Assembly (NCBI GenBank): GCA_002839855.1
Contig: PGYV01000001.1
Location: 124,001 to 188,000 of the forward strand
Source of the DNA: Candidatus Goldiibacteriota bacterium HGW-Goldbacteria-1
Lineage (GTDB): Bacteria; Oederibacteriota; PGYV01
Direction of reading: 5' to 3'
Length of the DNA: 64,000 bases
Shown here: in pieces, positions 1,258-16,625 of the stretch
Position numbering within the stretch: position 1 is the first letter of the stretch
Layout: every line of letters starts with the position of its first letter
The notes under the pieces: model-generated
Told to the model about the DNA's origin: nothing
What the model saw: only the letters and a program-made list of their open reading frames with translations
Databases searched by the model: none
Position numbers and translations under genes: made by a program

Positions 1258-2262
1258 TTAAAAATAAAACGAAGCCCTTGCAGTTATTATAAACCCGCCA
1301 AAATTGAAAGGCAGCGGTTTGGTGTCTGTCCACCCGGATACCGGATATTCAACAACATCCCCATTTTCATATGGGCTGCCGTCGGGGACTTTTGTGTACT
1401 TCATTTCTGATACAGTGGCTATCCTGTAGCCTATATTAAGCCCTGCTGAAATCATATCGCTTATCTTATACTCCCCAAACGCGCTTAAATCCGCTGTAAA
1501 ACACCCGCCGGAAAACGCCGCGTCGCTTTTGTAATCTGTTTTTGTGGTAATTCCCATTATAGTTATTGTCTGTTCTGTGTTACTGATAAAAGAACCGGAG
1601 GCAAAACCCCATCCGGCGTAAATGCCCGCGCCGGCAGATACCGGTGTATTTGGTATTTTAAATTCGTATGACCCGCCAAGCATAACGGGTATCATTAGAA
1701 CCGAATACTGATTTTCCATTTTACTTGACATACCCGGTATAGAGTATTCATCCGTAAGTTTCGCATTAGCAGGAAGAATAATACCAAGTTTTACCCCCGT
1801 GTATAGCCCCTGCAAAAAAGAATATCCCGCTTCCACGCCCGCGGTAAAGCCGGCGCCGAATTTTGAGGTTTTAGCCGTATCAGACGCCAGATTTTCAAAA
1901 AGAAAATCATTAACCGTTTCCATCCCCACCGTTGTAAACCCGGCAAAAGGCGACACCCTTATTTTTTTCCACTCCAGGGCGCTGCGGGTTACCGCCAGCT
2001 TAGCCGCAAAGTTTATAAACGGCTTTGCTTTTGCCGGCTGCCCCATTTTTTCATAGCAATTCCCTATCATGTGAAAGTATTCAGGATTAGTTTTATCAGC
2101 CTTGGCGGCTTTGGTGAAATAAGAAAGCGCTTTGGAGTAATTACGCGCGTTGTAAAGTTTCATTCCGATATCATAATACCTTTCCGGCGTTTCCGCGAAA
2201 GATACCGATGACAAAGCCATAATAAACATAAATAAAACCGCTGACATCTTAAATAATTTCAT
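1258..2262 (-). CDS. TPR-containing beta-barrel envelope protein
   Basis: The preferred start is the ATG at 2262, which follows a GGGGTGG site and begins a signal peptide (MKLFKMSAVLFMFIMALSSV, cleavage near SFA). An in-frame ATG at 2304 would put 14 extra residues before it. The first ~70 mature residues form about two tetratricopeptide repeats (YYDIGMKLYNARNYSKALSY and the next helix pair). These are followed by a glycine- and aromatic-rich region with alternating strands that ends in ITARASFYF. A terminal phenylalanine is the usual signal for insertion by the outer-membrane assembly machinery. I infer a periplasmic TPR domain joined to an outer-membrane barrel of the OmpW/OmpA size class. 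No precise family or substrate can be given. Confidence 0.6.
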   Translation of the reverse strand: MKLFKMSAVLFMFIMALSSVSFAETPERYYDIGMKLYNARNYSKALSYFTKAAKADKTNPEYFHMIGNCYEKMGQPAKAKPFINFAAKLAVTRSALEWKKIRVSPFAGFTTVGMETVNDFLFENLASDTAKTSKFGAGFTAGVEAGYSFLQGLYTGVKLGIILPANAKLTDEYSIPGMSSKMENQYSVLMIPVMLGGSYEFKIPNTPVSAGAGIYAGWGFASGSFISNTEQTITIMGITTKTDYKSDAAFSGGCFTADLSAFGEYKISDMISAGLNIGYRIATVSEMKYTKVPDGSPYENGDVVEYPVSGWTDTKPLPFNFGGFIITARASFYF

Positions 2263-2346
2263 TTTGCCCACCCCACTTTTAGAATTTAAACTTTCTGCTG
2301 TCATACATTATTTTAACAAAAATACAGCTATCATGAATACTATTAT

Positions 2347-3096
2347 TTAACGCCCTATGTATCTTAATATTCCATTAATAAAAGTCAGCGGATGCGGAGG
2401 GCAGCCCGGTATATAAAGGTCAATCTTATTTTTCTCCAAAAATCCTCTGTTTATTTCCGGGGAACCTTGAAAAATTCCGCCTGATATGGCACAGCTTCCG
2501 CATAATATGACAATTTTAGGGTGCGGCAATGCTTCATAACATATCTCAAGCGGCTCTGCCATGTTTTTTGTAACAGGGCCTGTTATCACAATTCCGTCAG
2601 CATGCCTTGGGGATGCTGTAAATTCCACGCCAAACCTGCCCATGTCAAAGTTAACATTATTCAGCGCGTTAAGTTCCAGTTCACACCCATTACAGCCCCC
2701 GGCAGATACCTGCCTTAGCTTCAGCGATTTTCCAAAATACTTCCTTATTTTTTCAGATGCCATCTGCATATTTACAGACTTTGCTTCTTCATTTATTATC
2801 AGGTTTTCTTTTTTGTCCGAAGCCAGATGATAATTGCCGGTAAAAGTTATCTTATTTTCAGGGCATACCTGCGCGCAAAGGCCGCAGAATACGCATTTCC
2901 CAATATCAATGCTGAACGGTTTTTTTGTAACAGCGCCCGCCGGGCAGATGTCAGCACATAAAACGCAGTTATGACTGCATTCAGCGCCGCTAATGTACGG
3001 AACTCCCCTGTATCTGTCAGGGAATTTGGCATCTCTATAATCATGCACAATAGGGTCTGCCTGCAGAATCCTAAGTTTAACAGCGTCAAATAACAA
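2347..3096 (-). CDS. Ehr/hydrogenase-4-like small subunit fused to a 2[4Fe-4S] ferredoxin domain
   Basis: This is a 249-residue electron-transfer subunit. Residues 35-85 are a two-cluster ferredoxin domain (Cys40/44/47/51 and Cys68/71/74/78), like HycF/HyfH. Residues 120-249 are a NuoB/HycG/HyfI domain with GGCNGCELELNAL (Cys135, Cys138), LCGSC (199-202) and PGCPP (Cys232), the ligands of the cluster nearest the large subunit. HyfH and HyfI are separate genes in Escherichia coli, so this is a fusion. The first ferredoxin motif has C-x3-C instead of the usual C-x2-C. The start codon is TTG, with AAGGAGGAATAAAA before it. It is the last gene of the operon, 19 nt after the large subunit. It should sit on the cytoplasmic face and pass electrons from ferredoxin or a similar donor. 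Confidence 0.88.
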   Translation of the reverse strand: MLFDAVKLRILQADPIVHDYRDAKFPDRYRGVPYISGAECSHNCVLCADICPAGAVTKKPFSIDIGKCVFCGLCAQVCPENKITFTGNYHLASDKKENLIINEEAKSVNMQMASEKIRKYFGKSLKLRQVSAGGCNGCELELNALNNVNFDMGRFGVEFTASPRHADGIVITGPVTKNMAEPLEICYEALPHPKIVILCGSCAISGGIFQGSPEINRGFLEKNKIDLYIPGCPPHPLTFINGILRYIGR

Positions 3097-3115
3097 TTTT
3101 ATTCCTCCTTACTTT

Positions 3116-4600
3116 CTATAAATCATGGCCCGAATATGACAGGTCAAAACTTTTATTGCATATTGGAAAATCATATATATCAGTATTCTGCATGACAAAA
3201 CTTAACGCCTGCCAGTTATTAAACGAAGGGTCCTTAATGTAATACTGCGTTAATTTTGAATCTTCCCCTGTAAAGGCACCGTGAAAAATTTCACCGCGAA
3301 ACCCTTCTGTAACTGATACAACTCCATACCCCGGCTGCAGCGCCGGATAATAGGTTTCTGTCGCGGTTCCGGCTTCAGGCAGGCTGTCAATATAATTATC
3401 AACGAACTTCATGGACTCTTCTATATCAAGAACCCTTAATCTTGTCCTTGAAAAGACATCTCCGCCTTCAATTGATATCATTGATACCGGCATATATCTA
3501 TAGCCGCAGTATGGATAATTCACCCTTGCGTCACACGCAAGCCCGGATGCGCGTGCCGCGTTTCCCGTTAAAGCCATTTCTTCCGCATCCTTTTTTAGCA
3601 CTATGCCTGTTTTTTCAAACCTTAATATCGCCGCTGACGATGTCAACAAACACCGGTTTATCTCTTTTATGTCATTCTTTACGGTTTCTAAATTATTTTT
3701 TATTACCTTTATGACGTCATCATTCATGTCATGACGCAGCCCGCCGTATGCAAACAGCCCGCGCCCAAACCTGGACCCGGACAGTTCGGCAAGGCTGTTA
3801 ATTACAAGAGTCCTTAGCCTGCCGTAGGAAGAAGATACTATTGCAAAACCTATGTCATTTGAAATACCAAGCAGCCCGCTTATGTTCATCGCAATCCGCT
3901 CAAGCTCCGATGCTATTACCCTGACAGCCTGCCGTCTTAAGCATGGATTAATTCCGGCAAGCGCTTCTATCGCAAGGCAGTGCGCGTGCGCGTGGCCCAT
4001 TACCGTATCACCCGCAATTGATTCCGCCAGAATTATCCTCTGCACGGGATTTGAATCAATAAGCATTTTATCAACACCGCGCTTCTGATACCCAAGGCTG
4101 ATTTCAAGATTATAAACAGTCTCCCCGTGGCACTGGAACCTGAAATGCCCGGGTTCAATAATACCGGCGTGTATGGGCCCAACCGCCACTTCATGCGCCG
4201 ACTCGCCTTCAAGCCTGTAGAACCGATACGCTTTGCCGTCTATTTTGGAATTCATGTCCCTTACCGGGCGCAGGCCCGGATGTGACTTTATTTTATACCC
4301 GTATTTTTCGGCAAGTTCGCATTCAAAATATTCCGCGTGCGGGAACTCTTCCGACATGCTTTCAAGTTCAGGCTCGCTGCCGTTTATTATTCCGCCCGCT
4401 ATGACAAATGACGAATTGTCGCGGTCAGAAAGAAGAATAATAAGTTTATTTCTCTCTGTCCGGTTAAGCGGAAACATCCCGGAAATTACAAGCCCGCCGC
4501 GCAGTTTTTCCATGACAGTTTCCTTAAATAACTGCTGCGGTATGAATTCAATTTCAGCTGTTCTAAAAGGCACGCCGTTATACACCCTAAGCAGGCTCAT
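3116..4600 (-). CDS. Ehr-type large subunit (NuoC-NuoD/HyfG-like) without Ni-Fe ligands
   Basis: The 494 residues combine an N-terminal NuoC/30-kDa-like domain (about 1-115) and a NuoD/HyfG-like domain. GPIHAGIIEPGHFRF at 141-155 is the conserved hydrogenase/complex I motif. Real hydrogenases have a CGIC-type motif next, but here residues 193-206 read ESIAGDTVMGHAHA. At the C-terminus DPCxxC is replaced by DFPICNKSFDLSYSGHDL. All four canonical Ni-Fe ligand cysteines are therefore missing. This is what is known for energy-converting hydrogenase-related (Ehr) complexes, and it argues against H2 chemistry. The start codon overlaps the stop of the preceding gene (ATGA, 4597-4600), so translation is coupled. 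The true redox partner is unknown. Confidence 0.85.
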   Translation of the reverse strand: MSLLRVYNGVPFRTAEIEFIPQQLFKETVMEKLRGGLVISGMFPLNRTERNKLIILLSDRDNSSFVIAGGIINGSEPELESMSEEFPHAEYFECELAEKYGYKIKSHPGLRPVRDMNSKIDGKAYRFYRLEGESAHEVAVGPIHAGIIEPGHFRFQCHGETVYNLEISLGYQKRGVDKMLIDSNPVQRIILAESIAGDTVMGHAHAHCLAIEALAGINPCLRRQAVRVIASELERIAMNISGLLGISNDIGFAIVSSSYGRLRTLVINSLAELSGSRFGRGLFAYGGLRHDMNDDVIKVIKNNLETVKNDIKEINRCLLTSSAAILRFEKTGIVLKKDAEEMALTGNAARASGLACDARVNYPYCGYRYMPVSMISIEGGDVFSRTRLRVLDIEESMKFVDNYIDSLPEAGTATETYYPALQPGYGVVSVTEGFRGEIFHGAFTGEDSKLTQYYIKDPSFNNWQALSFVMQNTDIYDFPICNKSFDLSYSGHDL

Positions 4601-6051
4601 GGCGACACCCCAAAATCAAACGCTATGCGCGTTATTATTTCCCTGAAACTCTGCGGCAGCAGCAGCGCCGCGCCGACAGACAGCGCCAGAAGCAGCAAAG
4701 ATACCAGATGAATTATATTGAATTCTTCTTTCTGCGGCGGCAGGATGTTTTTTTCATCAGGCTCATGGTGCAGCATATGAAGTATATGCAGGGACATCTT
4801 TATGAATATAACAAACATAAAAGCCAGTACGGATGCCAAAAGCCATGGTTTTCCCGTTTTAAATATCCCTTCAAATATCATAAGCTCGCTGAAAAATATG
4901 CCAAAAGGCGGAATCGCTGAAATTGCCAGAAACGCGGCAAAAAATATCCAGCCCGTCAGCGGCATTAAATTTATAACCGAATGCACGTTCTTAATCTCCC
5001 TTGATTTAAACTTTTGATGTATCAGCCCGGCGTTAAGAAACAGAATAACTTTTATGATGGAATTATATAAAGCATGGTACATGGCGCCGGTAAAAGCAAG
5101 TCCGCCCGTGCCTATTCCTATCACAATAATACCAAGATGTTCAACGCTGGAATAAGCAAGAAGCCTTTTATAATTTTTTACCTTAAACATCATTATCATA
5201 ACAACAACAAGCGATATTAAACCGCCTGCAATAAGGCTGGTTTTTACAAATCCGGCAATTGAGGAACTGTTTGTAATCTGAACAAACCGCAGAAGGCCCA
5301 ATAACGCTGTTATCCTGAGCGAACCTGACATAAGGGCGGCAATTGGGCTGGGAGAATTGCTTGTGGCGTCAACATCCGCCTGATGCATGGGCGCAATGCC
5401 TATCTTTGTGCTTAAACCCACAAATATAAATACAAATGCCGCCTTTAGCCATACCGGGTTTAAAAGCGCGGCGTTTTTTACAAATTCATCAAAATAAAGC
5501 TGCCGGCCTTCAAGTATTGTGTTATGCGCGGAAATTGCAAGAAAAAGAATTCCAATAAAAGTAAAGGCAATTCCCACAGAGACTAAAAACAGGTATTTCC
5601 ACATGGCTTCAAGCGAATCCCTGTCCCGGTAAAAGAAAATAAGCGGCGCAACGCTTAACGTTGTGGCTTCTGCCGCCACCCAGTATATTATAAAACTTTT
5701 ACTCATTACCGCAGCCCCGTTTGCAAGCAGGAAAAGGTTCAGAAAAAAGTAAAAATACTTTATTCCGCTTGCGCTGCTTTTTAAATGGGTGTTTTTCAGA
5801 AACGAACCCGAAACAAGCATAGTCCAGAAATACACATTTGAGATTATAAGAAGAAAATACCTGCTTAAAGCGTCATATTCACCGGCCTTAATCCCCAGAA
5901 CATCAGATTCAAAAAAGACAGCAACAGAAAAAGCAAGATGAACGGCGGCCACACCTAACGACAGCACAAAACGCGGTTTTTCCCGCCTTATTAAATAGCA
6001 TGCCGCCATTGCAAGAAAAGGCAGAATGTATAAAACAAACACAGCTGCCAT
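4597..6051 (-). CDS. Ehr antiporter-like subunit (HyfF/NuoN-like)
   Basis: A 484-residue polytopic membrane protein of the Mrp antiporter/NuoL-M-N family. The residues thought to carry protons are present: Glu in YWVAAEATTLSVAP, Lys in GLSTKIGIAPMH, and Lys in HALYNSIIKVILFLNAGL. LLAYSSVEHLGI is the typical family motif. The length and the C-terminal Glu/Lys-rich cytoplasmic end fit HyfF. It overlaps the HyfE-like gene by one base (TGATG at 6049-6053) and the large-subunit gene by four. In the complex it should be one of two ion-translocating modules. Whether H+ or Na+ moves cannot be read from the sequence. Confidence 0.87.
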   Translation of the reverse strand: MAAVFVLYILPFLAMAACYLIRREKPRFVLSLGVAAVHLAFSVAVFFESDVLGIKAGEYDALSRYFLLIISNVYFWTMLVSGSFLKNTHLKSSASGIKYFYFFLNLFLLANGAAVMSKSFIIYWVAAEATTLSVAPLIFFYRDRDSLEAMWKYLFLVSVGIAFTFIGILFLAISAHNTILEGRQLYFDEFVKNAALLNPVWLKAAFVFIFVGLSTKIGIAPMHQADVDATSNSPSPIAALMSGSLRITALLGLLRFVQITNSSSIAGFVKTSLIAGGLISLVVVMIMMFKVKNYKRLLAYSSVEHLGIIVIGIGTGGLAFTGAMYHALYNSIIKVILFLNAGLIHQKFKSREIKNVHSVINLMPLTGWIFFAAFLAISAIPPFGIFFSELMIFEGIFKTGKPWLLASVLAFMFVIFIKMSLHILHMLHHEPDEKNILPPQKEEFNIIHLVSLLLLALSVGAALLLPQSFREIITRIAFDFGVSP

Positions 6052-6683
6052 CAGTCACCCAGCCGTGTAAGTTCGGCAGTTTCTGTTTCCGGTGCCGCCG
6101 AGCTTATTTTATTTAATGCCACGCCCATAATAAACACCACAATGAAAATATCCAGAAGCGAAGCTATTTCCACCAGAAACGGCAGTTCAAAATGCACTGC
6201 AGCCCCAAAAAGGAAAATACCGTTTTCCAGAATTAAAAAACCAATGGCATGTACAATAAGTTTTTTTCTGAACATTATTATAAGAAGCCCGCAGATAACA
6301 GAAGAAAAACCGGAGGCAAAAACAATAGTGTCAACAGGCATAGACTCTGAAAGTATCCTGGAAGTTACAAAAACCACCGCCATGGCTGCCAGCATTATCA
6401 GAAGAAAGGTAAAATTTTGTACTGTTGTTTCAATGGTCCGCTTCAAGTCAGACTCCACAATTAACTTATTTAAATACATCGGTATAAAAAACGCCTTCAC
6501 CACAAGCAGAATGGCCGGCAGCAGCAGATAAGACGGCTTAAATTCGCCGAATAACGGCAGTATATTAATGGCGGTAAGCAGCATTCCCTGCAGCGCCAGC
6601 ATCTGCACGTATGATTCCAGCCGCCTTGTAACGGCCAGATATAACAGTGTAAGGCAAAAAACAATACTTAAAACGCTCTCCAT
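6051..6683 (-). CDS. Ehr HyfE/NuoK-like membrane subunit
   Basis: A 210-residue, very hydrophobic protein with six or more predicted membrane segments. Its latter half (ILENGIFLFGAAVHFELPF and the following LLDIFIVVFIMGV) matches the NuoK/MnhC-like core of HyfE, including the Glu in LILENG. Position and size agree with HyfE in the order B-C-E-F-G-H/I. A GAGGTAATGAC stretch precedes the ATG. It is expected to link the NuoH-like and antiporter-like subunits in the membrane arm. The C-terminus is a short acidic tail. Confidence 0.82.
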   Translation of the reverse strand: MESVLSIVFCLTLLYLAVTRRLESYVQMLALQGMLLTAINILPLFGEFKPSYLLLPAILLVVKAFFIPMYLNKLIVESDLKRTIETTVQNFTFLLIMLAAMAVVFVTSRILSESMPVDTIVFASGFSSVICGLLIIMFRKKLIVHAIGFLILENGIFLFGAAVHFELPFLVEIASLLDIFIVVFIMGVALNKISSAAPETETAELTRLGD

Positions 6684-6692
6684 GTCATTACC

Positions 6693-7613
6693 TCATTTGT
6701 TAAGTACAAATATAAGAAGATTTAATATCCCGATTGCAGTTGCAAAAAGCAGGTATTGCGGCACTTCCCGTATCTTTATTCTTCCGGTTATTGTTTCCAC
6801 AACCGCAAGCACAAAGGCAAATATGACAGCGGTCAAAACGACAATTAAAACCGCCCCCATGCCTGATATTTTTAAAAGCGGCAGAAGAAAGGCGGCTTCA
6901 AAAGCCATATAAATAAAAAGTTTTATCTGGGCGGAATACTGGTACATGAAAAGGTCCGCGCCGGAATTATCAAGTATCATAACTTCGTGTATCATTGTCA
7001 GTTCCAGATGCGTGTTAGGGTCATCCACCGGCATACGGGAACATTCAGCAACAGCAAGCACAAAAAATGATATTGAAGATACAATGACAAAAACAAAATA
7101 AACCGCGCCGGACGCGTTGACAGAACTGAAAATTTTATATAAGGACGTATTGCCGCTTATAAAAGCAAGCGCGCCTGCCGTAAAGAAAAATATAGGTTCC
7201 GCAAATATTGAAAAAAACGATTCCCTGGAAGCTCCCATCCCTTCAAAAGAACTTCCTATATCCATAGCCGCGATTATCTGAAAAAACCGCGACAACCCCA
7301 GTACATAAGCAAAAAATATTATATCACCTTCAAAACTTATAAGCGGCTTTGCGGAAGCCAGCGGTACCATCGCGGATGCTATTACCGTACATGCCAGATT
7401 AACCGGCGGCGAAATACGGCTGATAAAGGATGAATGCGACGAGTTAATTGTCTCTTTTTTAATAACCCTGAAGAGTTCATAATAAGGCTGAAGCACAGGC
7501 GCGCCCTGCCTTCCGGTAAAATAAGCTTTTAACTTATTGACAATTCCGCTAAGAAGCGGGGCTAAAACCAGCACCGAAGCAAAAGCCAGACAGGACTTTA
7601 GAAAATCAGTCAT
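6693..7613 (-). CDS. Ehr NuoH/HyfC-like membrane subunit
   Basis: A membrane subunit joining the hydrophilic and membrane arms. Family motifs are plain: YFTGRQGAPVLQPYYEL near residue 35, SFEGMGASRESFF, and ECSRMPVDDPNTHLELTMIH followed by a conserved Glu. I take the ATG at 7613 as the start because it overlaps the stop of the previous gene (ATGA, 7610-7613). A TTG at 7619 would add two residues. It has about eight hydrophobic segments and the usual length for HyfC (about 306 residues). In complex I this subunit forms the quinone chamber. In Ehr and Hyf complexes the equivalent cavity is believed to be part of the proton path. Confidence 0.88.
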   Translation of the reverse strand: MTDFLKSCLAFASVLVLAPLLSGIVNKLKAYFTGRQGAPVLQPYYELFRVIKKETINSSHSSFISRISPPVNLACTVIASAMVPLASAKPLISFEGDIIFFAYVLGLSRFFQIIAAMDIGSSFEGMGASRESFFSIFAEPIFFFTAGALAFISGNTSLYKIFSSVNASGAVYFVFVIVSSISFFVLAVAECSRMPVDDPNTHLELTMIHEVMILDNSGADLFMYQYSAQIKLFIYMAFEAAFLLPLLKISGMGAVLIVVLTAVIFAFVLAVVETITGRIKIREVPQYLLFATAIGILNLLIFVLNK

Positions 7614-9574
7614 TTCCAAAACAACGCCCCCGCCCCGTATATGGATGCCATTATAACTATCATAAGCACATATACCCTGATATCCCTGCTGTCAAAAATT
7701 TTTATTTCCGAAAAGAACTTCTCAACAGAGGCAAAAAACGAAAGTATGATTTTTTTATCCACTAAATCAGATGAATGACTTTCAAAATACACCGCTTTTT
7801 TTCCGGAGTATTTTACTTTTTTAAAGTACTGTAAAGGAACCGAGGAAATTGAATTTACCCCGTCTGCAAAAGATGAAGCGGTATACTGCATTCTTGGGCT
7901 TAAACCTTTATAACCGCACGCCCATGCGCCGGATTTTCTTCTGCCATATCGTCTTTCCAGAAAAACTTTAAGCGCAGAAAATAATATTACCGCCGCAAAT
8001 ATTATAAACGCCGCAAGGCTTATATATCCCGCTTCTATGCCGGGCAGGCCAAAGGAAGGCGCAAAATTAACATTAAAACTGTAAGCCGTTTTGTAAACTG
8101 TTTTTATGAAAGCCGAAGGAAAAACGCCTATTATCAGGCATGCCAAAGCCAGAATTCCAAGCGAACCATATTCCGGCAGGCTTACGCTGAATTTTTCAAC
8201 GGGCTTTCTTTCTTCACCCAGAAATATTATGGAATTGATTTTTGTAAAACACGCGATGGCAAGCCCCCCCACAAAGGCAAGCGCTACAGAACAGATAAGC
8301 ATATAAATGGGATAATACCCGCCAAATTCAGCTGAAGCTTTAAAAAAAGATATAAATATGATAAATTCCGATACAAAACCGTTAAACGGCGGTATCCCGC
8401 TTATGGCCACGGAACCTGCCAGAAAAAGCGCGGCAAAAAACGGCGCCTTATGCACCAGGCCGCCCATTAATTCTATATTTTTTGTCCCAAGATTTCTGTC
8501 CAGCACCCCGCTTCCAAGAAACAGCAGGCTTTTAAAAAGCGCGTGGTTAAGCGTATGCAGAAGAGCTCCGCCAAAACCAAGCAGGACAAGCGCCGGAGCA
8601 TTTTTTGCGGAACCCAGAAAACCTATCGCCAGGCCGATACCTATTATCCCTATATTTTCCACCGAATGATAAGCCAGCAGAGTTTTTATATCGTGCTGCG
8701 CCAGGGCATACCATACCCCGAATACCGCGCTTATAACGGCAACTGCCATCAGAACCCAGCCCATCCATTCCGGTACCGGCTGCAGAATCTGAAAAGTCCT
8801 GAAAATTCCATAAATACCGGTTTTTATTATAACGCCGGAAAGAAACGCGCTTATTGTGGTGGGTGCAATAGGGTGAGCCCTTGGAAGCCAGAAATGTACA
8901 GGCATGAAACCGGCTTTCATTCCAAAAGCCAACAGAGCTGTAATAAATATAATTGGATACCAGGATGAACCGGAAGGTACATTAAACCCGCTGATAAGCC
9001 AGGTTCCGCTTATATTATGCAGAATAAAAAATAGAAAAAACAGCAGGTACATTATAAAGTGGCTCATCGCAAGATAATAGAAACTGCCATCCTGTACTTC
9101 TTTTTGTTCCTTCTTAAAAAGCATGCCAAGATACGCGGACATGCTCATAATCTCCCAGCATATTAAAAACATTACCGCGTGATCTGCCGTTACAAGCGCC
9201 TGGGTAAATACAACCAGCAATATGTAAAACAGCATCAGGTTTTTAACGTTCTTGCCGGCGCTTATGTAATACCCCAAATATGAATAGCTGTATATGGTAA
9301 TGGCAATAGCCGCGCCCTGAACCACACACAGGAAAAAAAGCGCCGCAGAATCAAGCCTGTATGTTAAGTATTCATTATTAAAAAGGGTTCCTGCCGCAGA
9401 AAAAGAAATAACGCCTGAAAGCATCATTACAGAAACCACAAAACCGGTTAACAGTCCCATAAGCAGCAGTAAATGGGCGGCGACGGATGACGCTTTTTTA
9501 TCGCCTATAAAAAGCGCGAATACGGATAAAAGCTGTATGGCAAATGATAAAAAAAGAGTATTTTCCCCGGTCAC
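7610..9574 (-). CDS. Ehr antiporter-like subunit (HyfB/NuoL-like)
   Basis: A 654-residue member of the NuoL/Mrp antiporter family, close in size to HyfB. The functional charged residues are in place: Glu in LICWEIMSMSAYL, Lys in AFGMKAGFMPVHFWLP, Lys in GVIIKTGIYG and Lys in NHALFKSLLF. LLAYHSVENIGIIGIG is the usual helix 8-9 motif. The gene starts with GTG inside the stop of the EIIA-like gene (GTGA, 9571-9574), so the regulator and this pump subunit are translationally coupled. The long C-terminal extension after residue 560 (Arg-rich, then one last membrane helix) is typical of HyfB. Confidence 0.88.
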   Translation of the reverse strand: MTGENTLFLSFAIQLLSVFALFIGDKKASSVAAHLLLLMGLLTGFVVSVMMLSGVISFSAAGTLFNNEYLTYRLDSAALFFLCVVQGAAIAITIYSYSYLGYYISAGKNVKNLMLFYILLVVFTQALVTADHAVMFLICWEIMSMSAYLGMLFKKEQKEVQDGSFYYLAMSHFIMYLLFFLFFILHNISGTWLISGFNVPSGSSWYPIIFITALLAFGMKAGFMPVHFWLPRAHPIAPTTISAFLSGVIIKTGIYGIFRTFQILQPVPEWMGWVLMAVAVISAVFGVWYALAQHDIKTLLAYHSVENIGIIGIGLAIGFLGSAKNAPALVLLGFGGALLHTLNHALFKSLLFLGSGVLDRNLGTKNIELMGGLVHKAPFFAALFLAGSVAISGIPPFNGFVSEFIIFISFFKASAEFGGYYPIYMLICSVALAFVGGLAIACFTKINSIIFLGEERKPVEKFSVSLPEYGSLGILALACLIIGVFPSAFIKTVYKTAYSFNVNFAPSFGLPGIEAGYISLAAFIIFAAVILFSALKVFLERRYGRRKSGAWACGYKGLSPRMQYTASSFADGVNSISSVPLQYFKKVKYSGKKAVYFESHSSDLVDKKIILSFFASVEKFFSEIKIFDSRDIRVYVLMIVIMASIYGAGALFWK

Positions 9575-10239
9575 TTCGCGCGCCTTCCTTCGATTTCATT
9601 AATAACGTTAACTATATCCATAAAAACAGCCCTTTGTTTAAGCGCCACCCTGAAACTTTCATGTGATAACAGAAGGTTTATGTGTGCCAGCATTCCAAGA
9701 TGCTGCTTTATGGTCTGCGACATCATAAGTATTATGGTATGAACGGGCTGATTATCAACCGCTTTAAGTTTAAGATATTTCTCGGGGAAGAAGAACATAA
9801 TTAGCGGCCTGTCTTTTGCAATAATCAGGGGAACCCTGGGATGCGGCAGACTGATGCCGTGCCCGATTGCCGTGCTCATAAGCCCTTCCCTTGCCTTCAA
9901 CAGCTGAACAACAACTTTTTTATCGGTGCCGGCCGGAAATTCGGCAATGTTAACCATTTCATCCAGATAACTCTTTTCGCTTAAGTTCACATCACGGTAA
10001 AATGATTTCTCCGAAAGAAGCGGCACCATTGAACCTATGGAATATTCAGTCATCTTCATGCTGCCGGTCAGGTTTACAGGGACCGAATTTTCTATGGCCC
10101 ATGCTATTATCTGCTGTTTATTGAAACACACTTTATCCCTAATGACGTCAAAAGGTATGTTTTTATTCTTAACAAGCGCAATAATTTCTTTTTCGGGCTT
10201 TAAAAGAAATACAGCAAGATCCTTTACAGACAGCTCCAT
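9571..10239 (-). CDS. Regulatory EIIA (PtsN-like) protein with N-terminal excisionase-type HTH
   Basis: The start at 10239 is chosen because a strong AGGGGGG site precedes it and it avoids overlap with the SulP gene. An upstream in-frame ATG exists at 10305. Residues 1-52 (MELSVKDLAVFLLKPEKEII onward) look like a small helix-turn-helix of the excisionase/MerR type. Residues ~85-220 are a PTS EIIA type 2 domain with the phosphorylated His in GHGISLPHPR. No EIIB or EIIC domain is nearby, so transport of sugar is unlikely. EIIA-Ntr is known in E. coli to control K+ transport and stress responses. Here the gene sits between an anion transporter and the Ehr subunits and overlaps the next gene by 4 nt. 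I infer a phosphorylation-dependent regulator of this operon or of its transporters. Confidence 0.8.
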   Translation of the reverse strand: MELSVKDLAVFLLKPEKEIIALVKNKNIPFDVIRDKVCFNKQQIIAWAIENSVPVNLTGSMKMTEYSIGSMVPLLSEKSFYRDVNLSEKSYLDEMVNIAEFPAGTDKKVVVQLLKAREGLMSTAIGHGISLPHPRVPLIIAKDRPLIMFFFPEKYLKLKAVDNQPVHTIILMMSQTIKQHLGMLAHINLLLSHESFRVALKQRAVFMDIVNVINEIEGRRAK

Positions 10240-10258
10240 AAACCCCCCTGCCTTTTTT

Positions 10259-11935
10259 TCATTTTGTTTCCATAATTTTTCTTGCCCTGTTATATGCCAT
10301 TTCAATATTTCCCAGTATATTGCCTTTTCCTATTTTTTCCGATAAACCCGCTTTTTCAAGGGCATGTGAAGGCTGCTGATGTACGCCGCATAATAGAAGC
10401 TGCGTGCCATTGGATTTCAGCCTGTTAAAAACTTCATCAAGCGCTTTGATGCCGGCTCCGTCTATAGAAATAACTTTTTCCATGTACAGAATGAATACTT
10501 TGGAATTTTTCAGTTCCTGCGTGACTGAATCCTTAAATTTATCAATGACCCCGAAGAAGAATACACCGTCTATTTCAAACACTTCAACCCCGTCAGGTAT
10601 CTTCTTAATTGAATTAATATACTCTTTGTCTTCCTTATTTTCTTCTTCATCCAGTGACCTGTCCACAAAACCCGCGTGCGTCACTTCGGTCACCCTGTTT
10701 ACAAGCAGAAACATCGCAAGAAGAATTCCCACCTCTATCGCGGCGGTAAGGTCCACGATAACCGTAAGAAAGAACGTGATAAGCATAACAGCAACATCAC
10801 TTTTGGGGTACTTGAATACGCCTGCAAAAGTTCTCCACTCGCTCATCTGATAGGCGACAAAAACAAGGATTGCCGCAAGGACAGCAATTGGAATCATACC
10901 CGCCCATTTTCCAAAAAACAGCATTATAAGCAAAATTGTGACAGCGTGTATTATTCCCGCCACGGGAGTCTGCCCGCCGTTTTTTATATTCGTGGCGGTC
11001 CTTGCTATAGCGCCTGTGGCCGGAATCCCGCCAAACATGACAGAACCAATATTTGCAAAACCCTGCGCCATAATTTCCGCGTTGCTTCTGTGCCTGCGCC
11101 CAGTCATACCGTCAGCAACAACCGCCGATAAAAGCGATTCTACAGCGGCAAGAACCGCAATGGTGACAGCCGGGGAAAACATCTTTCTGGCAAGTTCAAA
11201 AGTTATATTTGGAAAATGCGGCGCGGGCAGCGTGTTTGGAACCTGCCCGAATCTTGATTCTATTGTTTCAACAGGAATATTAAATATTTTTACTGCAGCA
11301 GTACATAGTATTATAGCCACAAGCGAAGCCGGTATTTTTCTTATGAATTTAGGCCATATTATAAGAAGCGCCAGTGAAAACAGCGCGATACCCGCCGCCC
11401 ATGGGTTCATATCCCCTATATGCTGCGCATACGCCTGAATTTTTCCCACAAAACCGGCCGGAAGAGAATCCATTTCAAGCCCAAAGAAATCTTTTATCTG
11501 CCCGGTAAAAATAATAAGCGCTATACCTGATGTAAATCCGATTGTAACCGGATACGGGATAAACTTGATATATGCCCCAACTCTTAAAAATGCCATGGTA
11601 AGCAGAATAAAACCCGCGATTAAGGTGGCGGTGGCAAGGCCGTCATATCCATACTTGCCCACTATCCCATAAACAATTACGATAAACGCGCCGGTCGGCC
11701 CGCCTATCTGATAACGGCTGCCCCCAAGTACAGAGATTATAAGCCCCGCGACTATCGCGGTATAAAGCCCCTGTTCCGGTTTCACACCGGAGGCAATAGC
11801 AAACGCTATTGCAAGTGGGATTGCAACCACCCCCACAATAATTCCGGCATTTAAATCCTTTAGAAAAGTACTTACAGTATAGCCTTCCTTAAACACGCTG
11901 ACAATTTTTGGTAAAAGCGAATACCTGTGCTTCAT
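10259..11935 (-). CDS. SulP family anion transporter with C-terminal STAS domain
   Basis: A 558-residue SLC26/SulP transporter. Residues 20-420 are the membrane domain, with the motif AIPLAIAFAIASGVKPEQGL and GGSRYQIGGPTGAF, which marks the anion site. Residues ~445-558 are a STAS domain (ISIDGAGIKALDEVF, LLLCGV). SulP proteins move sulfate, bicarbonate, dicarboxylates or other anions; the substrate cannot be assigned by reading. There are no sulfate assimilation genes in the window. As the first gene of the operon feeding the HTH-EIIA and Ehr genes, it may supply or remove an anion (bicarbonate or formate are possible) linked to the ion gradient made by the complex. A GGAG site lies 8 nt before the ATG. 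Confidence 0.9.
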   Translation of the reverse strand: MKHRYSLLPKIVSVFKEGYTVSTFLKDLNAGIIVGVVAIPLAIAFAIASGVKPEQGLYTAIVAGLIISVLGGSRYQIGGPTGAFIVIVYGIVGKYGYDGLATATLIAGFILLTMAFLRVGAYIKFIPYPVTIGFTSGIALIIFTGQIKDFFGLEMDSLPAGFVGKIQAYAQHIGDMNPWAAGIALFSLALLIIWPKFIRKIPASLVAIILCTAAVKIFNIPVETIESRFGQVPNTLPAPHFPNITFELARKMFSPAVTIAVLAAVESLLSAVVADGMTGRRHRSNAEIMAQGFANIGSVMFGGIPATGAIARTATNIKNGGQTPVAGIIHAVTILLIMLFFGKWAGMIPIAVLAAILVFVAYQMSEWRTFAGVFKYPKSDVAVMLITFFLTVIVDLTAAIEVGILLAMFLLVNRVTEVTHAGFVDRSLDEEENKEDKEYINSIKKIPDGVEVFEIDGVFFFGVIDKFKDSVTQELKNSKVFILYMEKVISIDGAGIKALDEVFNRLKSNGTQLLLCGVHQQPSHALEKAGLSEKIGKGNILGNIEMAYNRARKIMETK

Positions 11936-12009
11936 TGACTTAGCTCCAAAAGGGCAAAAAAATTTTACCTTTTTGATTTGTCGTCCGGTCTGTTAATGGT
12001 GGCCTGGCG

Positions 12010-12025
12010 GCATTTCACGAAATGC
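12010..12025. promoter_or_regulatory. 16-bp palindrome in the leader of the SulP-EIIA-Ehr operon
   Basis: GCATTTC and GAAATGC arms of 7 bp are separated by 2 bp. A second short inverted repeat (GCTAT...ATAGC, 12024-12040) follows. Both lie inside the ~130-nt leader of the operon, about 45-60 nt downstream of the -10 box. The palindrome could be an operator for the HTH-EIIA protein or part of a leader RNA fold. Neither is shown. Confidence 0.4.
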
Positions 12026-12074
12026 TATATTTGAAATAGCTTTTTTAATGTATTGCCCTTTAAATATAAATGAG

Positions 12075-12104
12075 ATTATACACCTTAGAATGTTTTTATG
12101 TCAA
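12075..12104 (-). promoter_or_regulatory. Strong sigma70-like promoter for the SulP-EIIA-Ehr operon
   Basis: TTGACA (12099-12104) and TATAAT (12075-12080) are both perfect consensus boxes with an 18-bp spacer, on the minus strand. Transcription would start near 12068, leaving about 130 nt of leader before the SulP ATG at 11935. No other promoter of this quality was seen within the operon. Confidence 0.65.
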
Positions 12105-12161
12105 TACCTGTGAAATACCGGCAGGGTTCAGGGTAATATTTTCCGAATTCCGAATGATAAT

Positions 12162-15100
12162 TTACTTAATTATTATCAGTTTATCCGTTTTTGAAGCGGC
12201 ACCGGAATCATCCCGTATGACAAAATAATACGTGCCGCAGGCGAAAGTTTTAAGGCGGGATGCGGGTATTTCCGCGGTTTTAACTCCGGCGTAAACTTCA
12301 CCGGAAAGTTTAATCTCTTTTACAAGCCTGAATGAAACGGAATAGACCTTAAGATTAACTTCTTTTGCTTTTTTGGTAAGCGTATATCTTATCCTTAACA
12401 TACTGTCATTTGGATTGTACGGGTGCGGGTAAACCAGCACATCTTTAATCTGCTGCTTGTCAGCATCCGGCGGCAACAAAGTGGATGTCGGGGTGGGTGT
12501 ATGCGTATATGTCTGCGTTGCTGTATATGTATAAGTATTTGTATACGTGGAAGTCGGTGGAACAGGTGTATTTGTAAGCGTATGCGTTCTTGTAGCGGTA
12601 TTTGTATATGTTTTTGTGTAAGTATTTGTGGCTGTTTGGGTGCTTGTGTTTGTCGCAGTATGTGTTGCTGTATATGTGTTTGTATTTGTGCTGTTCGGAA
12701 TATTAGTCGCGGTCTGTGTGGCTGTGTTTGCCGGCACTGTTGCGGTGTACGTACTTGTGTTTGTCGGCACTGTTACGGTGTACGTGCTTGTGTTTGTCGG
12801 CACTATCGCGGTGTACGTGTTTGTGTTTGTCGGCACTATCGCGGTGTACGTGTTTGTGTTTGTCGGCACTATTGCGGTGTACGTGCTTGTGTTTGTCGGC
12901 ACTATTGCGGTGTACGTGCTTGTGTTTGTCGGCACTATTGCAGTGTATGTACTTGTGTTTGTCGCCGAAGGTGTCGCAGTATGCGTACTTGTGTTTGCAG
13001 GCACCGTCGACGTGTGTGTTGCCGTGTGCGTGCTTGTGTTTGTCGCGGTATCAGTCGCGGTGTAAGTTGATGTGTGTGTTGAAGTATGCGTGGCGGTGTT
13101 TGTATTTGTATGGGTTGAAGTAAAGGTATTTGTAGGCTGAATAGTGTTTGTATTAGTACGCGTGTACGTGGCAGTTACAACAGCAGTGTTTGTCGGGGTT
13201 GAGCCGCACCCAGTGTCAATTTTTCCGATTCCGGCGCCGGCAATAACGGACGCCTTAACAGATGAAGCCGGTTCAAGCGCGGCGGAGTAATCGTAAGTTG
13301 GATTAAAAGTACAGGTGGATGACGTGGGCCTGTTGTTGGTGCAGTTTTGATAAATGTTTGAATTGTCCGCGCCGTTAAAACCGCTTCTTAAATCCCAATA
13401 CCCGTCAAGCGTACTGTTTGCGGTCAATATCGGGTCATCGGAATTTTCAAAGTAATTATTTTCCACCCTTAAACACGCTTCCATCCTTGAATTTACCCCT
13501 GACGAAAGCACGTCATAAAAATAGTTATTATAAACATGGCCCGTGCCAAAGCGGTAGCTTGGCATCCTTTCCTTAATATTGTTGTAACGGTTATGATGGA
13601 AAGTAATCTTTCTATCGTAATTATCGCTGTCCGAACTTCCCACAAGGTGGCATTTGTGGTGGTCGTGAAAATAGTTCCACGATAAAGTTATATAATTTGA
13701 ATTATTTTTAACATCCAGAAGCCCGTCATACAAATCCTGGTTAGTCTGCACGTTCGGGTCCTGCTGATAAAATTCGCAGTGGTCAACCCATATATTGGTA
13801 CAGGTGTTCTGAATGCTTACACAGTCTCCGCCGTTTACTATTATCTGCGGCCTGCCTTCATCGCCGTCCGGGTCATATACAGCGGGGTCAGTGGTATTGG
13901 TTATGGACACCAGCGTAAACTTAATATTTCTTATTATAATGTTGCTCTCATTGCTTATCATTAGTCCTATACCGTTAAAAAACGCGCCGCTGCCGCACCC
14001 TATAATGGTTTTGTTGGAACCCACCCTGACCGATTTACCTTTGTCATCGCCGCTGTTAATTTCACCGGTAACCCTTATAACAGCCGGCGTGTCGCCCGCG
14101 GCGTAAGTGATAAGGTCAGCCAGATTTGTGACGTCATAAATAACTCCGCCTTCCCCTCCGGTTGTTCCGCCATTCTGCGTTGCAAAGCCCACCATACCGT
14201 CTGTTAATACTGACTGTGTCTGCACGGGCGTATACGTCGCAGTGGAAGTTGAATTTACGGTGTAAGTGTAAGTAGGTGTTGCCGACGGGGCAGAACAGCT
14301 GCCCGCGGAGATATTTGCTGATACAGCGGATATCCTGTCAATATTCGGGGCGCCTTCAGCTGTAAGCGAAGTAAGCGTTATCAGATTATTCCCCGCGGCA
14401 AGGGCGGCGTTAAAAGTATTTTCCTGCCACACAGTCCACGCGGATGTGGTGTTAAAGTCAAAAGATGATGATACAACAGCGCCGTTAATTTTTATTTCCA
14501 TATTCCTGTTATTGGCGCTGCCGTTGGCATACCTGAAAGTAAGGTTAACATTTGCCGCGGATGACATATTAAGCGCAAAGGTATAAGCCGTTCCCGCGGC
14601 GTTATTAAGGTTTATATACCCTGTTCCGGTATAACCCGCGTTTGTGCTTTCTATTATGCCGTCGTAAGAACAGCCGTCTTCCGCCTGAAATACAAAATAA
14701 TTCTGCGGAGTCGGCGTCAAAGTGGGCGTAAGGGTGGAAGTGTAAGTATGCGAAAAAGTAAATGTCGGCTGCGGCGTATTACCGGGATAAAAAATTTGAA
14801 CTGACGGCTGCGCTGACGGGCCGTCGCCAAGATAAAACGAAACGTGCGGCGGCTGGTTATAAGCCACATTCTGCCACGCCACAGAAACCCTATATTGAAA
14901 ATCGTGCATCAAAGTATAAAACCTATAACTTGTTTCTATAACTGTCGTATATATCATCAGCTGTGTGTCAGAAGAATTTCTGTATATTGCCTCTTCGCGC
15001 CAGTCGCCTAAGATGTCCGCGGTAAGGCCCGGGTTTGCTTTTGTGCCGTTATTTTCTTTTGCGTCATTCACGGCATAAAAAGTGTAAAGCCTTGTTGTGC

Positions 15101-16625
15101 CGTTTCCTGTCCACTTATCAAGTTTGGTGCCGTCCAGCAGTTCATCCTGCAGGTCGCCGTCCCAGTATATTCTGTGGTTAATGGAAGGTTTTGAAGTTGA
15201 AATGCGCGTGCCGTTTACATTATAGACGCCGTCTGTATTGGAAGCCCACATTTCCCAGCCCCGGTAATTGCCGTCAATATCTGCGGCCAAGCCTCTTCCA
15301 ACATCAACAGCCGATGGGTATCCCCACAGCTGGTCTCCTGTTTTAGGGTCTCTGTATTCCGCGCCGTATTGTCCAAAAGCACTTACATCTTCGTGCGGCT
15401 GAAAATATTCAAGCCCTGCCCTGTCAGGATCCATATCGCCAAGATGGCACGCGTCGCCGTGGCCAAGCCCTGTTGAATAAAGCCCTGTTCCATTGTCATC
15501 TATAGAGCACGCGCCGTACACAATTTCATCCCGCCCGTCGCCGTCAACATCGCCTACGCTTAAATTATGATTGCCCTGCCCGTAATATGCGGAATTTCCG
15601 GCTGAATTGGAATCAAAGACCCACCGCTGCGTAAGAGCTGTACCGTTAAAATCATACGCCACAAGCACCGCGCGGGTATAATAGCCGCGGCACATTACAA
15701 GGCTTGGGTTAACGCCGTCAAGATACGCCACACCTGCCAGAAACCTGTCCACACGGTTGCCGTAATCGTCTCCCCACGACGATACTGTTCCCCTTGGAGG
15801 ATTGTAATTTATTGTGGTAATTTCACGCCCTGTCTGCCCGTTAAAAACAGTTAAATACTCCGGCCCTAATAACACATATCCCGAACTGTTTCTGTAATCA
15901 TCACCGTCTTGATCAGAAGCCGCAGGGCCCGTACTTAAAAAACCGCCGCTGCTGTCTTTTGTCCCCGGCGCAGTCTTGCACGCAATTTCCGCCTTTCCGT
16001 CACTGTCAAGGTCGTACACCATAAACTGCGTGTAATGAGCGCCGGCGCGGATATTTTTTCCCAAATCAATACGCCACATTAAAGTCCCGTTAAGTTTGTA
16101 CGCGTCAAGAAAGACGCTTCCGGTATAACCGGACTGTGAGTTATCTTTGGAATTATCAGGGTCCCATTTAAGAATTATTTCGTATTCGCCGTCGCCGTCA
16201 AGGTCGCCTGTAGAACAGTCATTTGCCGTATAATTGCACGTTGTAAAATCAGGCATTGTCTGCGATGCGGGCTTAGTAAGGTTAATTGTTTTATACTGCT
16301 GTGCCCAAACGGGCGCGGACTCTGAATCGCCCTGCTCTGTTCCGCCGATTACAGCACGGACAGTGTAAGTTGAATTTGCGGTTGTATTATCGGTTAAGTT
16401 TGTTGAACCTGTTAACGGGGATGAATTGACTTTCACGCCGCCCCTGTAAACATTAAAGGAGATATCCGCGGGATCTGTGGCAAACATTCGCCATCCCACG
16501 TAAACCGTGTTTGTGCCTGTCCTTACAGCCACCACTCCGCGGTTTAATCTTTCCATATACCTGGCGGAAAATACCGGCTGTAAAAAGACAGTTATCAAAA
16601 TAAGGGTTAAAACTGTTCTTTTCAT
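12162..16625 (-). CDS. Secreted bifunctional pectinase: PL11 rhamnogalacturonan lyase + CBM + PL1 pectate lyase
   Basis: The 1487 residues start with a signal peptide (MKRTVLTLILITVFLQPVFS). Residues ~20-625 match rhamnogalacturonan endolyases of family PL11 (YesW type), with DLDGDGEYEIILKWDPDNSK and NIRAGAHYTQFMVYDLDSDG. Residues ~665-800 are a CBM6/35-like module beginning FQAEDGCSYDG. Residues ~835-1130 are a PL1 pectate lyase with WVDHCEF, DGLLDVKNNSNYITLSWNYF and ERMPSYRFGTGHVYNNYF, which holds the catalytic Arg. A Thr/Asn-rich linker (~1160-1385) leads to the shared C-terminal domain (1387-1487) ending DKLIIIK. The enzyme should cut both the branched rhamnogalacturonan I backbone and homogalacturonan outside the cell. 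Confidence 0.9.
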   Translation of the reverse strand: MKRTVLTLILITVFLQPVFSARYMERLNRGVVAVRTGTNTVYVGWRMFATDPADISFNVYRGGVKVNSSPLTGSTNLTDNTTANSTYTVRAVIGGTEQGDSESAPVWAQQYKTINLTKPASQTMPDFTTCNYTANDCSTGDLDGDGEYEIILKWDPDNSKDNSQSGYTGSVFLDAYKLNGTLMWRIDLGKNIRAGAHYTQFMVYDLDSDGKAEIACKTAPGTKDSSGGFLSTGPAASDQDGDDYRNSSGYVLLGPEYLTVFNGQTGREITTINYNPPRGTVSSWGDDYGNRVDRFLAGVAYLDGVNPSLVMCRGYYTRAVLVAYDFNGTALTQRWVFDSNSAGNSAYYGQGNHNLSVGDVDGDGRDEIVYGACSIDDNGTGLYSTGLGHGDACHLGDMDPDRAGLEYFQPHEDVSAFGQYGAEYRDPKTGDQLWGYPSAVDVGRGLAADIDGNYRGWEMWASNTDGVYNVNGTRISTSKPSINHRIYWDGDLQDELLDGTKLDKWTGNGTTRLYTFYAVNDAKENNGTKANPGLTADILGDWREEAIYRNSSDTQLMIYTTVIETSYRFYTLMHDFQYRVSVAWQNVAYNQPPHVSFYLGDGPSAQPSVQIFYPGNTPQPTFTFSHTYTSTLTPTLTPTPQNYFVFQAEDGCSYDGIIESTNAGYTGTGYINLNNAAGTAYTFALNMSSAANVNLTFRYANGSANNRNMEIKINGAVVSSSFDFNTTSAWTVWQENTFNAALAAGNNLITLTSLTAEGAPNIDRISAVSANISAGSCSAPSATPTYTYTVNSTSTATYTPVQTQSVLTDGMVGFATQNGGTTGGEGGVIYDVTNLADLITYAAGDTPAVIRVTGEINSGDDKGKSVRVGSNKTIIGCGSGAFFNGIGLMISNESNIIIRNIKFTLVSITNTTDPAVYDPDGDEGRPQIIVNGGDCVSIQNTCTNIWVDHCEFYQQDPNVQTNQDLYDGLLDVKNNSNYITLSWNYFHDHHKCHLVGSSDSDNYDRKITFHHNRYNNIKERMPSYRFGTGHVYNNYFYDVLSSGVNSRMEACLRVENNYFENSDDPILTANSTLDGYWDLRSGFNGADNSNIYQNCTNNRPTSSTCTFNPTYDYSAALEPASSVKASVIAGAGIGKIDTGCGSTPTNTAVVTATYTRTNTNTIQPTNTFTSTHTNTNTATHTSTHTSTYTATDTATNTSTHTATHTSTVPANTSTHTATPSATNTSTYTAIVPTNTSTYTAIVPTNTSTYTAIVPTNTNTYTAIVPTNTNTYTAIVPTNTSTYTVTVPTNTSTYTATVPANTATQTATNIPNSTNTNTYTATHTATNTSTQTATNTYTKTYTNTATRTHTLTNTPVPPTSTYTNTYTYTATQTYTHTPTPTSTLLPPDADKQQIKDVLVYPHPYNPNDSMLRIRYTLTKKAKEVNLKVYSVSFRLVKEIKLSGEVYAGVKTAEIPASRLKTFACGTYYFVIRDDSGAASKTDKLIIIK
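12476..13205 (-). repeat. Thr/Asn-rich linker region of the PL11-PL1 gene with a 33-bp tandem repeat
   Basis: This stretch encodes the linker of TNT, TYT and THT units. From about 12723 to 12985 it contains about eight near-identical 33-bp units encoding AIVPTNTSTYT. The coding strand is rich in ACN codons, so the plus strand reads as G/T-rich, mostly alternating pyrimidine-purine DNA. Long antisense open frames here are composition artefacts. Confidence 0.8.

Follow-up and report, generated by a model that had tools for sequence, protein, structure and literature searches.

The question raised by this locus is why the gene of a SulP-type anion carrier should stand in one operon with the gene of an EIIA protein of the phosphotransferase system (PTS) and the genes of a hydrogenase-like Ehr complex. 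The locus lies in a stretch of 64,000 nucleotides from Candidatus Goldiibacteriota bacterium HGW-Goldbacteria-1 (contig PGYV01000001.1, positions 124,001 to 188,000), in the following called the window. At 2347-11935 of the window the minus strand carries eight open reading frames (ORFs), in the order of transcription SulP-STAS, helix-turn-helix (HTH)-EIIA, HyfB-, NuoH-, HyfE-, HyfF-, EhrL- and EhrS-like. The combination is real and conserved, and it is a variant of the Ehr operon in which the EIIA-Ehr part is general and SulP is the recurrent addition: SulP was found next to EIIA-Ehr in nine genomes including the window's, from four phylum-level groups. The layout is beyond chance, since the arrangement recurs in other phyla. 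The features of the locus are:

12075-12104, minus strand: sigma70-type promoter-like site with 18-bp spacer (TTGACA-18-TATAAT, 12/12 match)
10259-11935, minus strand: SulP (SLC26-type) anion transporter with STAS domain (PF00916, E 3.4e-88; PF01740, E 8.6e-17)
9571-10239, minus strand: HTH-EIIA, an N-terminal winged-HTH-like domain and an EIIA domain with phospho-acceptor His (PF00359, E 2.6e-15)
7610-9574, minus strand: HyfB-like antiporter subunit (PF00361; NCBIfam hydrogenase 4 subunit B, 450 bits, below the cut-off of 667)
6693-7613, minus strand: NuoH/HyfC-like membrane subunit (PF00146, E 2.4e-29; ATG at 7613, longest ORF from TTG 7619)
6051-6683, minus strand: HyfE-like membrane subunit (NCBIfam PRK11492, E 2.5e-11, below the cut-off; no Pfam match)
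4597-6051, minus strand: HyfF-like antiporter subunit (PF00361; NCBIfam hydrogenase 4 subunit F, 261.8 bits, below the cut-off of 610)
3116-4600, minus strand: EhrL, hydrogenase large-subunit/NuoD-like, without NiFe ligands (PF00346)
2347-3096, minus strand: EhrS, a ferredoxin domain fused to a complex I 20-kDa/hydrogenase small-subunit domain (PF01058, E 1.6e-29; PF00037)
1258-2304, minus strand: tetratricopeptide repeat (TPR) protein, co-directional and downstream, possibly the ninth gene of the unit (TPR Pfam matches)

Taken as longest ORFs, the eight genes occupy 2347-3096, 3116-4600, 4597-6051, 6051-6683, 6693-7619, 7610-9574, 9571-10305 and 10259-11935, all on the minus strand. Neighbouring genes overlap at 4597-4600 (4 bp), 6051 (1 bp), 7610-7613 (4 bp, if the NuoH-like gene starts at ATG 7613 and not at TTG 7619) and 9571-9574 (4 bp), and EhrL is separated from EhrS by approximately 19 bp. 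The EIIA gene most likely starts at ATG 10239 and not at TTG 10305, because its homologues start there; this start would leave a gap of approximately 19 bp after the SulP stop codon instead of a 47-bp overlap. The promoter-like site lies approximately 140 bp upstream of SulP, and it is the only perfect −35/−10 pair in the 64 kb; no such pair arose when the window was simulated 60 times with a first-order Markov model. The window totals of promoter-like sites (52, with 32.7 expected) and terminator-like sites (24, with 17.7 expected) are uninformative. The preliminary description of this DNA had claimed eight genes on one strand with overlaps of 1-4 bp behind one strong promoter, and all of this is borne out, as are its gene families, which agree with the Pfam and NCBIfam assignments.

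To describe the distribution, named genomes were scanned with the EhrL alignment, and the best 80 of at least 568 confirmed relatives were taken into the locus counts. In 36 out of 60 assessable Ehr loci from many phyla EIIA directly precedes HyfB in the same orientation, a number with a slight bias in favor of EIIA since sets with EIIA were regarded as judgeable even at little flank. HTH-EIIA genes occur at E 1e-16 in 8 of the 45 genomes of the window's phylum, in nine places, and all nine adjoin HyfB. The occurrence of EIIA with Ehr where SulP is missing speaks for Ehr as the first partner of EIIA.

The SulP gene is co-directional in 8 of the 9 genomes with the complete trio. Besides the window, a full-length SulP adjoins EIIA in L070, L071, L072 and L110 of the EhrL-alignment scan, and in L152, L153, L155 and L159 (genomes G131, G438, G410 and G084) among 12 further Ehr loci of a Bacteroidota sample. 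The SulP-first gene order of the window is found in all of these apart from L071, where SulP is adjacent but divergent. From the SulP stop codon to EIIA the gap measures between approximately 18 and 395 bp in the co-directional loci with a start found, which was not the case for L153. L076 (Planctomycetales) represents a partial case: a distant SulP (PF00916, 112 bits) lies divergently beside EIIA and runs off the end of the fetched locus. An adjacent SulP was seen in 0 out of 19 sampled EIIA-Ehr sets of Spirochaetota (24 loci retrieved from 56 listed places, with preference for those that include the N-terminal part) and in 0 out of 33 of Verrucomicrobiota (59 listed places covered by 56 regions). 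Two pairs of loci, L079/L172 and L093/L186, have the same match coordinates and are apparently identical loci reached twice. SulP occurs in 7 out of 41 genomes of the window's phylum and beside Ehr in the window's genome only; the other six SulPs are found on contigs other than those of the listed EhrL-like matches, or approximately 100 kb or more away from them. No further specific recurrent partner emerged among 907 neighboring ORFs, where mixed histidine-kinase-like sequences (labeled by eye) on both strands formed the largest cluster.

An arrangement private to the window's genome is thus rejected, as the same trio is found in eight other genomes. The preliminary description had treated SulP, EIIA and Ehr as one coupled unit that could be doubted if the genes were never adjacent in relatives, an outcome that did not occur: the trio is a conserved unit in nine genomes. 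Its interpretation, a phosphorylation-controlled ion or anion transport system in which Ehr would supply or use the gradient, is partly supported, with the relay genes of the genome and the conserved histidine of EIIA (below) in its favor. Its view of the whole trio as the novelty needs to be narrowed, as EIIA-Ehr is the common state and only SulP is unusual. Its statement that it knew of no such system agrees with our search of open-access full text, in which no description of SulP or EIIA with Ehr was found.

What could the Ehr complex do? The closest solved relative of EhrL is subunit 5 of formate hydrogenlyase (FHL; 7z0s_E, E 3.6e-73), and all four NiFe-ligand cysteines are missing from EhrL. 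In the EhrL alignment the first ligand site has a CxxC in 0 out of 160 rows, and every one of the 158 rows with letters shows S and G in place of the second ligand pair. The identity of a [NiFe] hydrogenase or FHL is ruled out by the absence of these four cysteines. The locus has what characterizes an Ehr complex: a large subunit without the NiFe-binding CxxC, and an antiporter-like and NuoH-like membrane arm in one operon with an iron-sulfur small subunit. EhrS carries two 4Fe-4S motifs in its ferredoxin domain and four cluster cysteines in its small-subunit domain; C135, C138, C202 and C232 have a conservation of 94% or more across 138 aligned rows, so that the four cysteines of the proximal cluster are kept. 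The nearly invariant Glu and Lys are retained in HyfB (conserved residues E141, K220, K348, E403) and HyfF, and we take them to be the proton-channel residues of complex I. This combination of retained cluster cysteines and antiporter residues with lost NiFe ligands is an argument that electrons can probably enter the complex and that ions are probably moved, and hydrogen chemistry is not to be expected. The HyfB protein had no match at E 1e-60 in a plasmid collection. A Verrucomicrobia contig (L113, 4339-19886) carries an Ehr set and, immediately after it, another Ehr-like set that is very divergent.

The EIIA protein of the window was modeled with AlphaFold (pLDDT 90.5), and structure comparison aligned the model with EIIA-Ntr (2a0j) with Z 16.3 over 142 residues. 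The histidine that we assume to be the phospho-acceptor is present in 139 out of 139 aligned homologues. With its EIIA fold and this histidine the protein has a PTS EIIA domain; its score of 34.6 bits against the PtsN model TIGR01419 (curated cut-off 138.7) places it outside the PtsN family. The genes for enzyme I (EI), HPr, HPr kinase, EIIA-Ntr, a mannose-type EII and sigma-54 share one neighborhood of the window's genome, and with the EI-HPr relay genes a phosphate donor for EIIA therefore exists. In that cluster (L275, G000:C13:1-16000, positions 3355-12869) rpoN, EIIA-Ntr, HPr kinase, a CofD-like gene, mannose-type EIIABCD, HPr and EI are grouped. Some HTH-EIIA genes of Verrucomicrobiota (L197, L206, L214) are located near other EIIA genes and transporter-like ORFs (labels by eye), and not near Ehr.

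SulP scores 390.4 bits against TIGR00815 (sulP), above the cut-off of 380.45, and with its Sulfate_transp and STAS domains it belongs to the SulP/SLC26 carriers. It was the sole SulP found at E 1e-10 in G000, G045, G046 and G047 and one of two in G049, the five trio genomes that were searched whole. In 27 other Bacteroidota SulP loci the called ORFs within approximately 1.5 kb matched any of the genes discussed here in 0 cases. In a metagenome-assembled genome (MAG) of Planctomycetaceae a carrier of this type fused to a P-II domain lies downstream of an Ehr locus, at a distance of approximately 7 kb (L083, 10323-12368).

How did SulP and Ehr come together? In the EhrL tree (156 rows, short and identical rows removed) a single clade of 17 rows (SH-aLRT 100) contains eight of the nine SulP loci; the ninth, L110, is located far away from it. 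The SulP tree gives a different picture. Loci were available for no more than the top 30 of 109 SulP matches, and L253, L256 and L259 were dropped as copies of included rows. The label “Ehr-linked” requires six changes on this tree, five of them forced by well-supported branches. Common inheritance of SulP, EIIA and Ehr as one block is rejected for SulP, a single clade of Ehr-linked SulPs having a p-AU (approximately unbiased test) of 2.9e-51 with nine rows and of 1.1e-33 without L110. The SulP of the window groups with Bacteroidota SulPs not adjoining Ehr. The window, L071, L110 and a Bacteroidota/Ignavibacteria group stand apart, and from these four separate positions approximately four joinings follow. 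SulP has thus probably joined the Ehr operon repeatedly, as judged from the trees; the changes may also be losses from Ehr-linked ancestors, and the number of gains is an estimate.

The Ehr genes themselves have a history of paralogues. G007 contains two complete EIIA-Ehr operons in tandem (L037 5581-13813, and L037 14182 to L038 2429), one per paralogue. The window's genome has a member of one Ehr paralogue clade and its congeners G001 and G002 have the other, in G001 beside the same downstream TPR gene as in the window; in both congeners the Ehr genes are situated near a contig end, so that the upstream flank is not covered. The tandem in G007 together with the single paralogues in the window's genus points to an old tandem pair of which different members were lost. 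A homologue of the TPR gene (1258-2304) also follows EhrS in L047, from a congener of the window's genome.

The reading we prefer, tentatively and at somewhat less than even confidence, is that the locus represents a conserved version of the Ehr operon: its SulP would transport an anion linked to the reaction of Ehr, and its EIIA, phosphorylated by the PTS, would act by contact. The mechanism that we infer, including the phosphorylation of the window's EIIA, its target, the transported anion and the direction of transport, would be the following. Ehr, with its iron-sulfur clusters and subunits of the proton-pumping type, would couple a cytoplasmic redox reaction to the movement of H+ or Na+. 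HTH-EIIA, as the usual partner of Ehr, would take phosphate from the EI-HPr relay of the cell, touch a membrane partner and control Ehr or SulP; action by contact seems most likely because the DNA-contact residues of the HTH are lost in this clade. The small anion moved by the recruited SulP would be linked to the reaction of Ehr, and its transport would use or relieve the gradient made by Ehr. Bicarbonate or formate would be the most likely anion, because of the Ehr-formate proposals, the carbonic anhydrase beside two Ehr loci and the published juxtapositions of carbonic anhydrase and FHL, which include Desulfocapsa. A C4-dicarboxylate would come next, because SulP scores better against the model of DauA (502.8 bits, cut-off 614) than against that of BicA (273.1 bits, cut-off 880).

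Several observations weigh against this reading. With both scores below the equivalog cut-offs, the substrate of SulP is not readable from its sequence. Carbonic anhydrase is found near two Ehr loci only, neither of them with SulP. Nine of the 17 rows of the EhrL clade are without SulP (L037, L073, L156, L158, L161, L174, L239, L241, L154); SulP being absent from such close relatives, Ehr does not need it. One of these, L154, has just upstream of EIIA (4353-4452) approximately 100 bp that match the start of SulP, likely a remnant of a SulP deletion. SulP is followed by a gene of the major facilitator superfamily (MFS, labeled by eye) without EIIA-Ehr in L268 and L254, and L152 has an 8-kb EIIA-Ehr segment between the same flanks; this may be a natural empty site, by insertion or deletion. 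The change in the HTH, finally, tracks the clade and not SulP alone: the recognition helix lacks its YR pair in every one of the 9 SulP loci and also in all 10 EIIAs that were grouped as clade members without SulP, although one of these ten is the second copy in G007, which is of the other paralogue. The loss is correlated with lineage and is therefore no proof of a role of SulP.

The same helix bears on the rather unlikely alternative that EIIA regulates the transcription of the operon in the ordinary way and senses PTS phosphorylation, SulP being a co-regulated uptake protein without direct contact. HTH_17 is matched by 28 out of 30 aligned EIIA homologues, and Ehr operons commonly begin with the EIIA gene. 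The N-terminal part of the model is folded as helix-helix-two strands-helix, elements that resemble a DNA-binding HTH of the MerR/excisionase type, in a domain barely covered by the structure comparison and modeled only within the whole protein. The EIIA of the window, however, has no HTH family match in Pfam at E 0.01, its N-terminal domain having been searched as part of the whole protein. The YR pair missing from the SulP loci is present in 68 out of 102 other Ehr-linked loci and in 13 out of 18 EIIA proteins counted as not Ehr-linked, and its loss in the window's clade argues against ordinary DNA binding. That the adjacency of SulP is a genomic accident without function, with Ehr operons inserting beside transporter genes or the reverse, we consider unlikely. 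The empty-site pairs would fit such an accident, as would the lack of an adjacent full-length SulP in 32 out of 36 scanned loci with EIIA and in all Verrucomicrobiota and Spirochaetota sets. Against it, several separate joinings are indicated, every one next to EIIA and none directly beside EhrS, and a rough estimate by hand gives less than 0.01 chance adjacencies in the scanned sample, assuming approximately 3,500 genes and one SulP per genome.

It is quite improbable, in our view, that Ehr works with a formate dehydrogenase encoded elsewhere which SulP feeds as a formate/bicarbonate exchanger. An FDH-Ehr (formate dehydrogenase-Ehr) complex has been proposed for Margulisbacteria and relatives (PMC6349859), Ehr proteins of Geobacter increase on formate (PMC7894505), and one account names Desulfocapsa among juxtapositions of carbonic anhydrase and FHL, and suggests a formate:bicarbonate antiporter beside such clusters (PMC10880623). 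The two beta-carbonic anhydrase genes we found are on the same strand as Ehr, one 233 bp downstream of the operon in a Desulfocapsa MAG (L132, 6940-7530) and one approximately 1.2 kb upstream of EIIA (L044, 14435-15094). Formate dehydrogenase itself is neither among the eight genes nor a recurrent neighbor, the remainder of the genome not having been searched for it.

Outside the operon, the upstream gene (12162-16625) encodes a protein of 1487 residues in which rhamnogalacturonan lyase, CBM35-like and pectate lyase domains are combined with long linkers rich in Thr and Asn. The Rfam scan of the window gave no RNA family match.

The interest of the preferred reading, a PTS-controlled Ehr complex with an associated anion carrier, arises from the abundance of Ehr, as at least 568 candidate stretches were confirmed as relatives in one scan, and from the available parts of published Ehr accounts, where its function is termed unknown or never investigated. 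An EIIA partner across many phyla and a recurrent anion carrier provide testable handles, namely a phosphorelay input and a candidate substrate class, and the trio in unrelated bacteria gives a testable lead on the role of the Ehr pump. If true, the reading would link the PTS to a complex I-like enzyme.

Compared to known systems, the locus is closest to the Ehr complexes of Geobacter (GSU0739-45), Nitrospira and Riflemargulisbacteria, with the same large subunit free of NiFe cysteines, the HyfB/HyfE/HyfF/NuoH-like arm and the small subunit. It differs from them by the added SulP and by the fusion of EhrS to a ferredoxin domain, and the published accounts, in the parts available, mention neither EIIA nor SulP. 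FHL and hydrogenase 4 of E. coli (Hyc, Hyf) include the closest solved relative of EhrL, and the membrane subunits match Hyf models; unlike these enzymes the window's system is without NiFe ligands and without formate dehydrogenase among its eight genes. DauA, other SLC26-SulP carriers and BicA have PF00916 and STAS in common with the SulP of the window, which lies below both equivalog cut-offs and is genetically linked to Ehr and EIIA. EIIA-Ntr (PtsN) shares the fold and the phospho-histidine, and the EIIA of the window has an extra N-terminal HTH-like domain. The DAC/DabAB complexes, which accumulate dissolved inorganic carbon (DIC) and consist of DabA and DabB, share a Proton_antipo_M membrane subunit and the suspected link to DIC; unlike there, a DabA-type subunit was not reported by Pfam among the eight genes.

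A parallel in structure exists to the SLC4 bicarbonate transporters (band 3, AE2), whose membrane domains share the UraA fold and whose cytosolic domains share the EIIA fold. The EIIA model also matches these domains with Z 11-12 over approximately 148 residues, ranked below EIIA proteins (AE2 8jnj_A, Z 11.8, 148 residues; band 3 1hyn_P, Z 11.1). The EIIA fold of SLC4 N-terminal domains and the control of TrkA by EIIA are found in print (PMC4664831), as is the UraA fold of SLC26 carriers (PMC5703999). SLC4 proteins are one polypeptide, while the window has EIIA and SulP as separate genes, the latter with a STAS domain, and so has no one-chain SLC4 protein. By analogy, EIIA beside SulP resembles an SLC4 transporter cut in two. 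It is conceivable, though very improbable, that EIIA represents the detachable cytosolic gating domain of SulP with a grip set by PTS phosphorylation, and that Ehr provides an electron-driven gradient, which would make the locus a redox-powered, phosphoenolpyruvate-gated bicarbonate/formate module and a split counterpart of SLC4.

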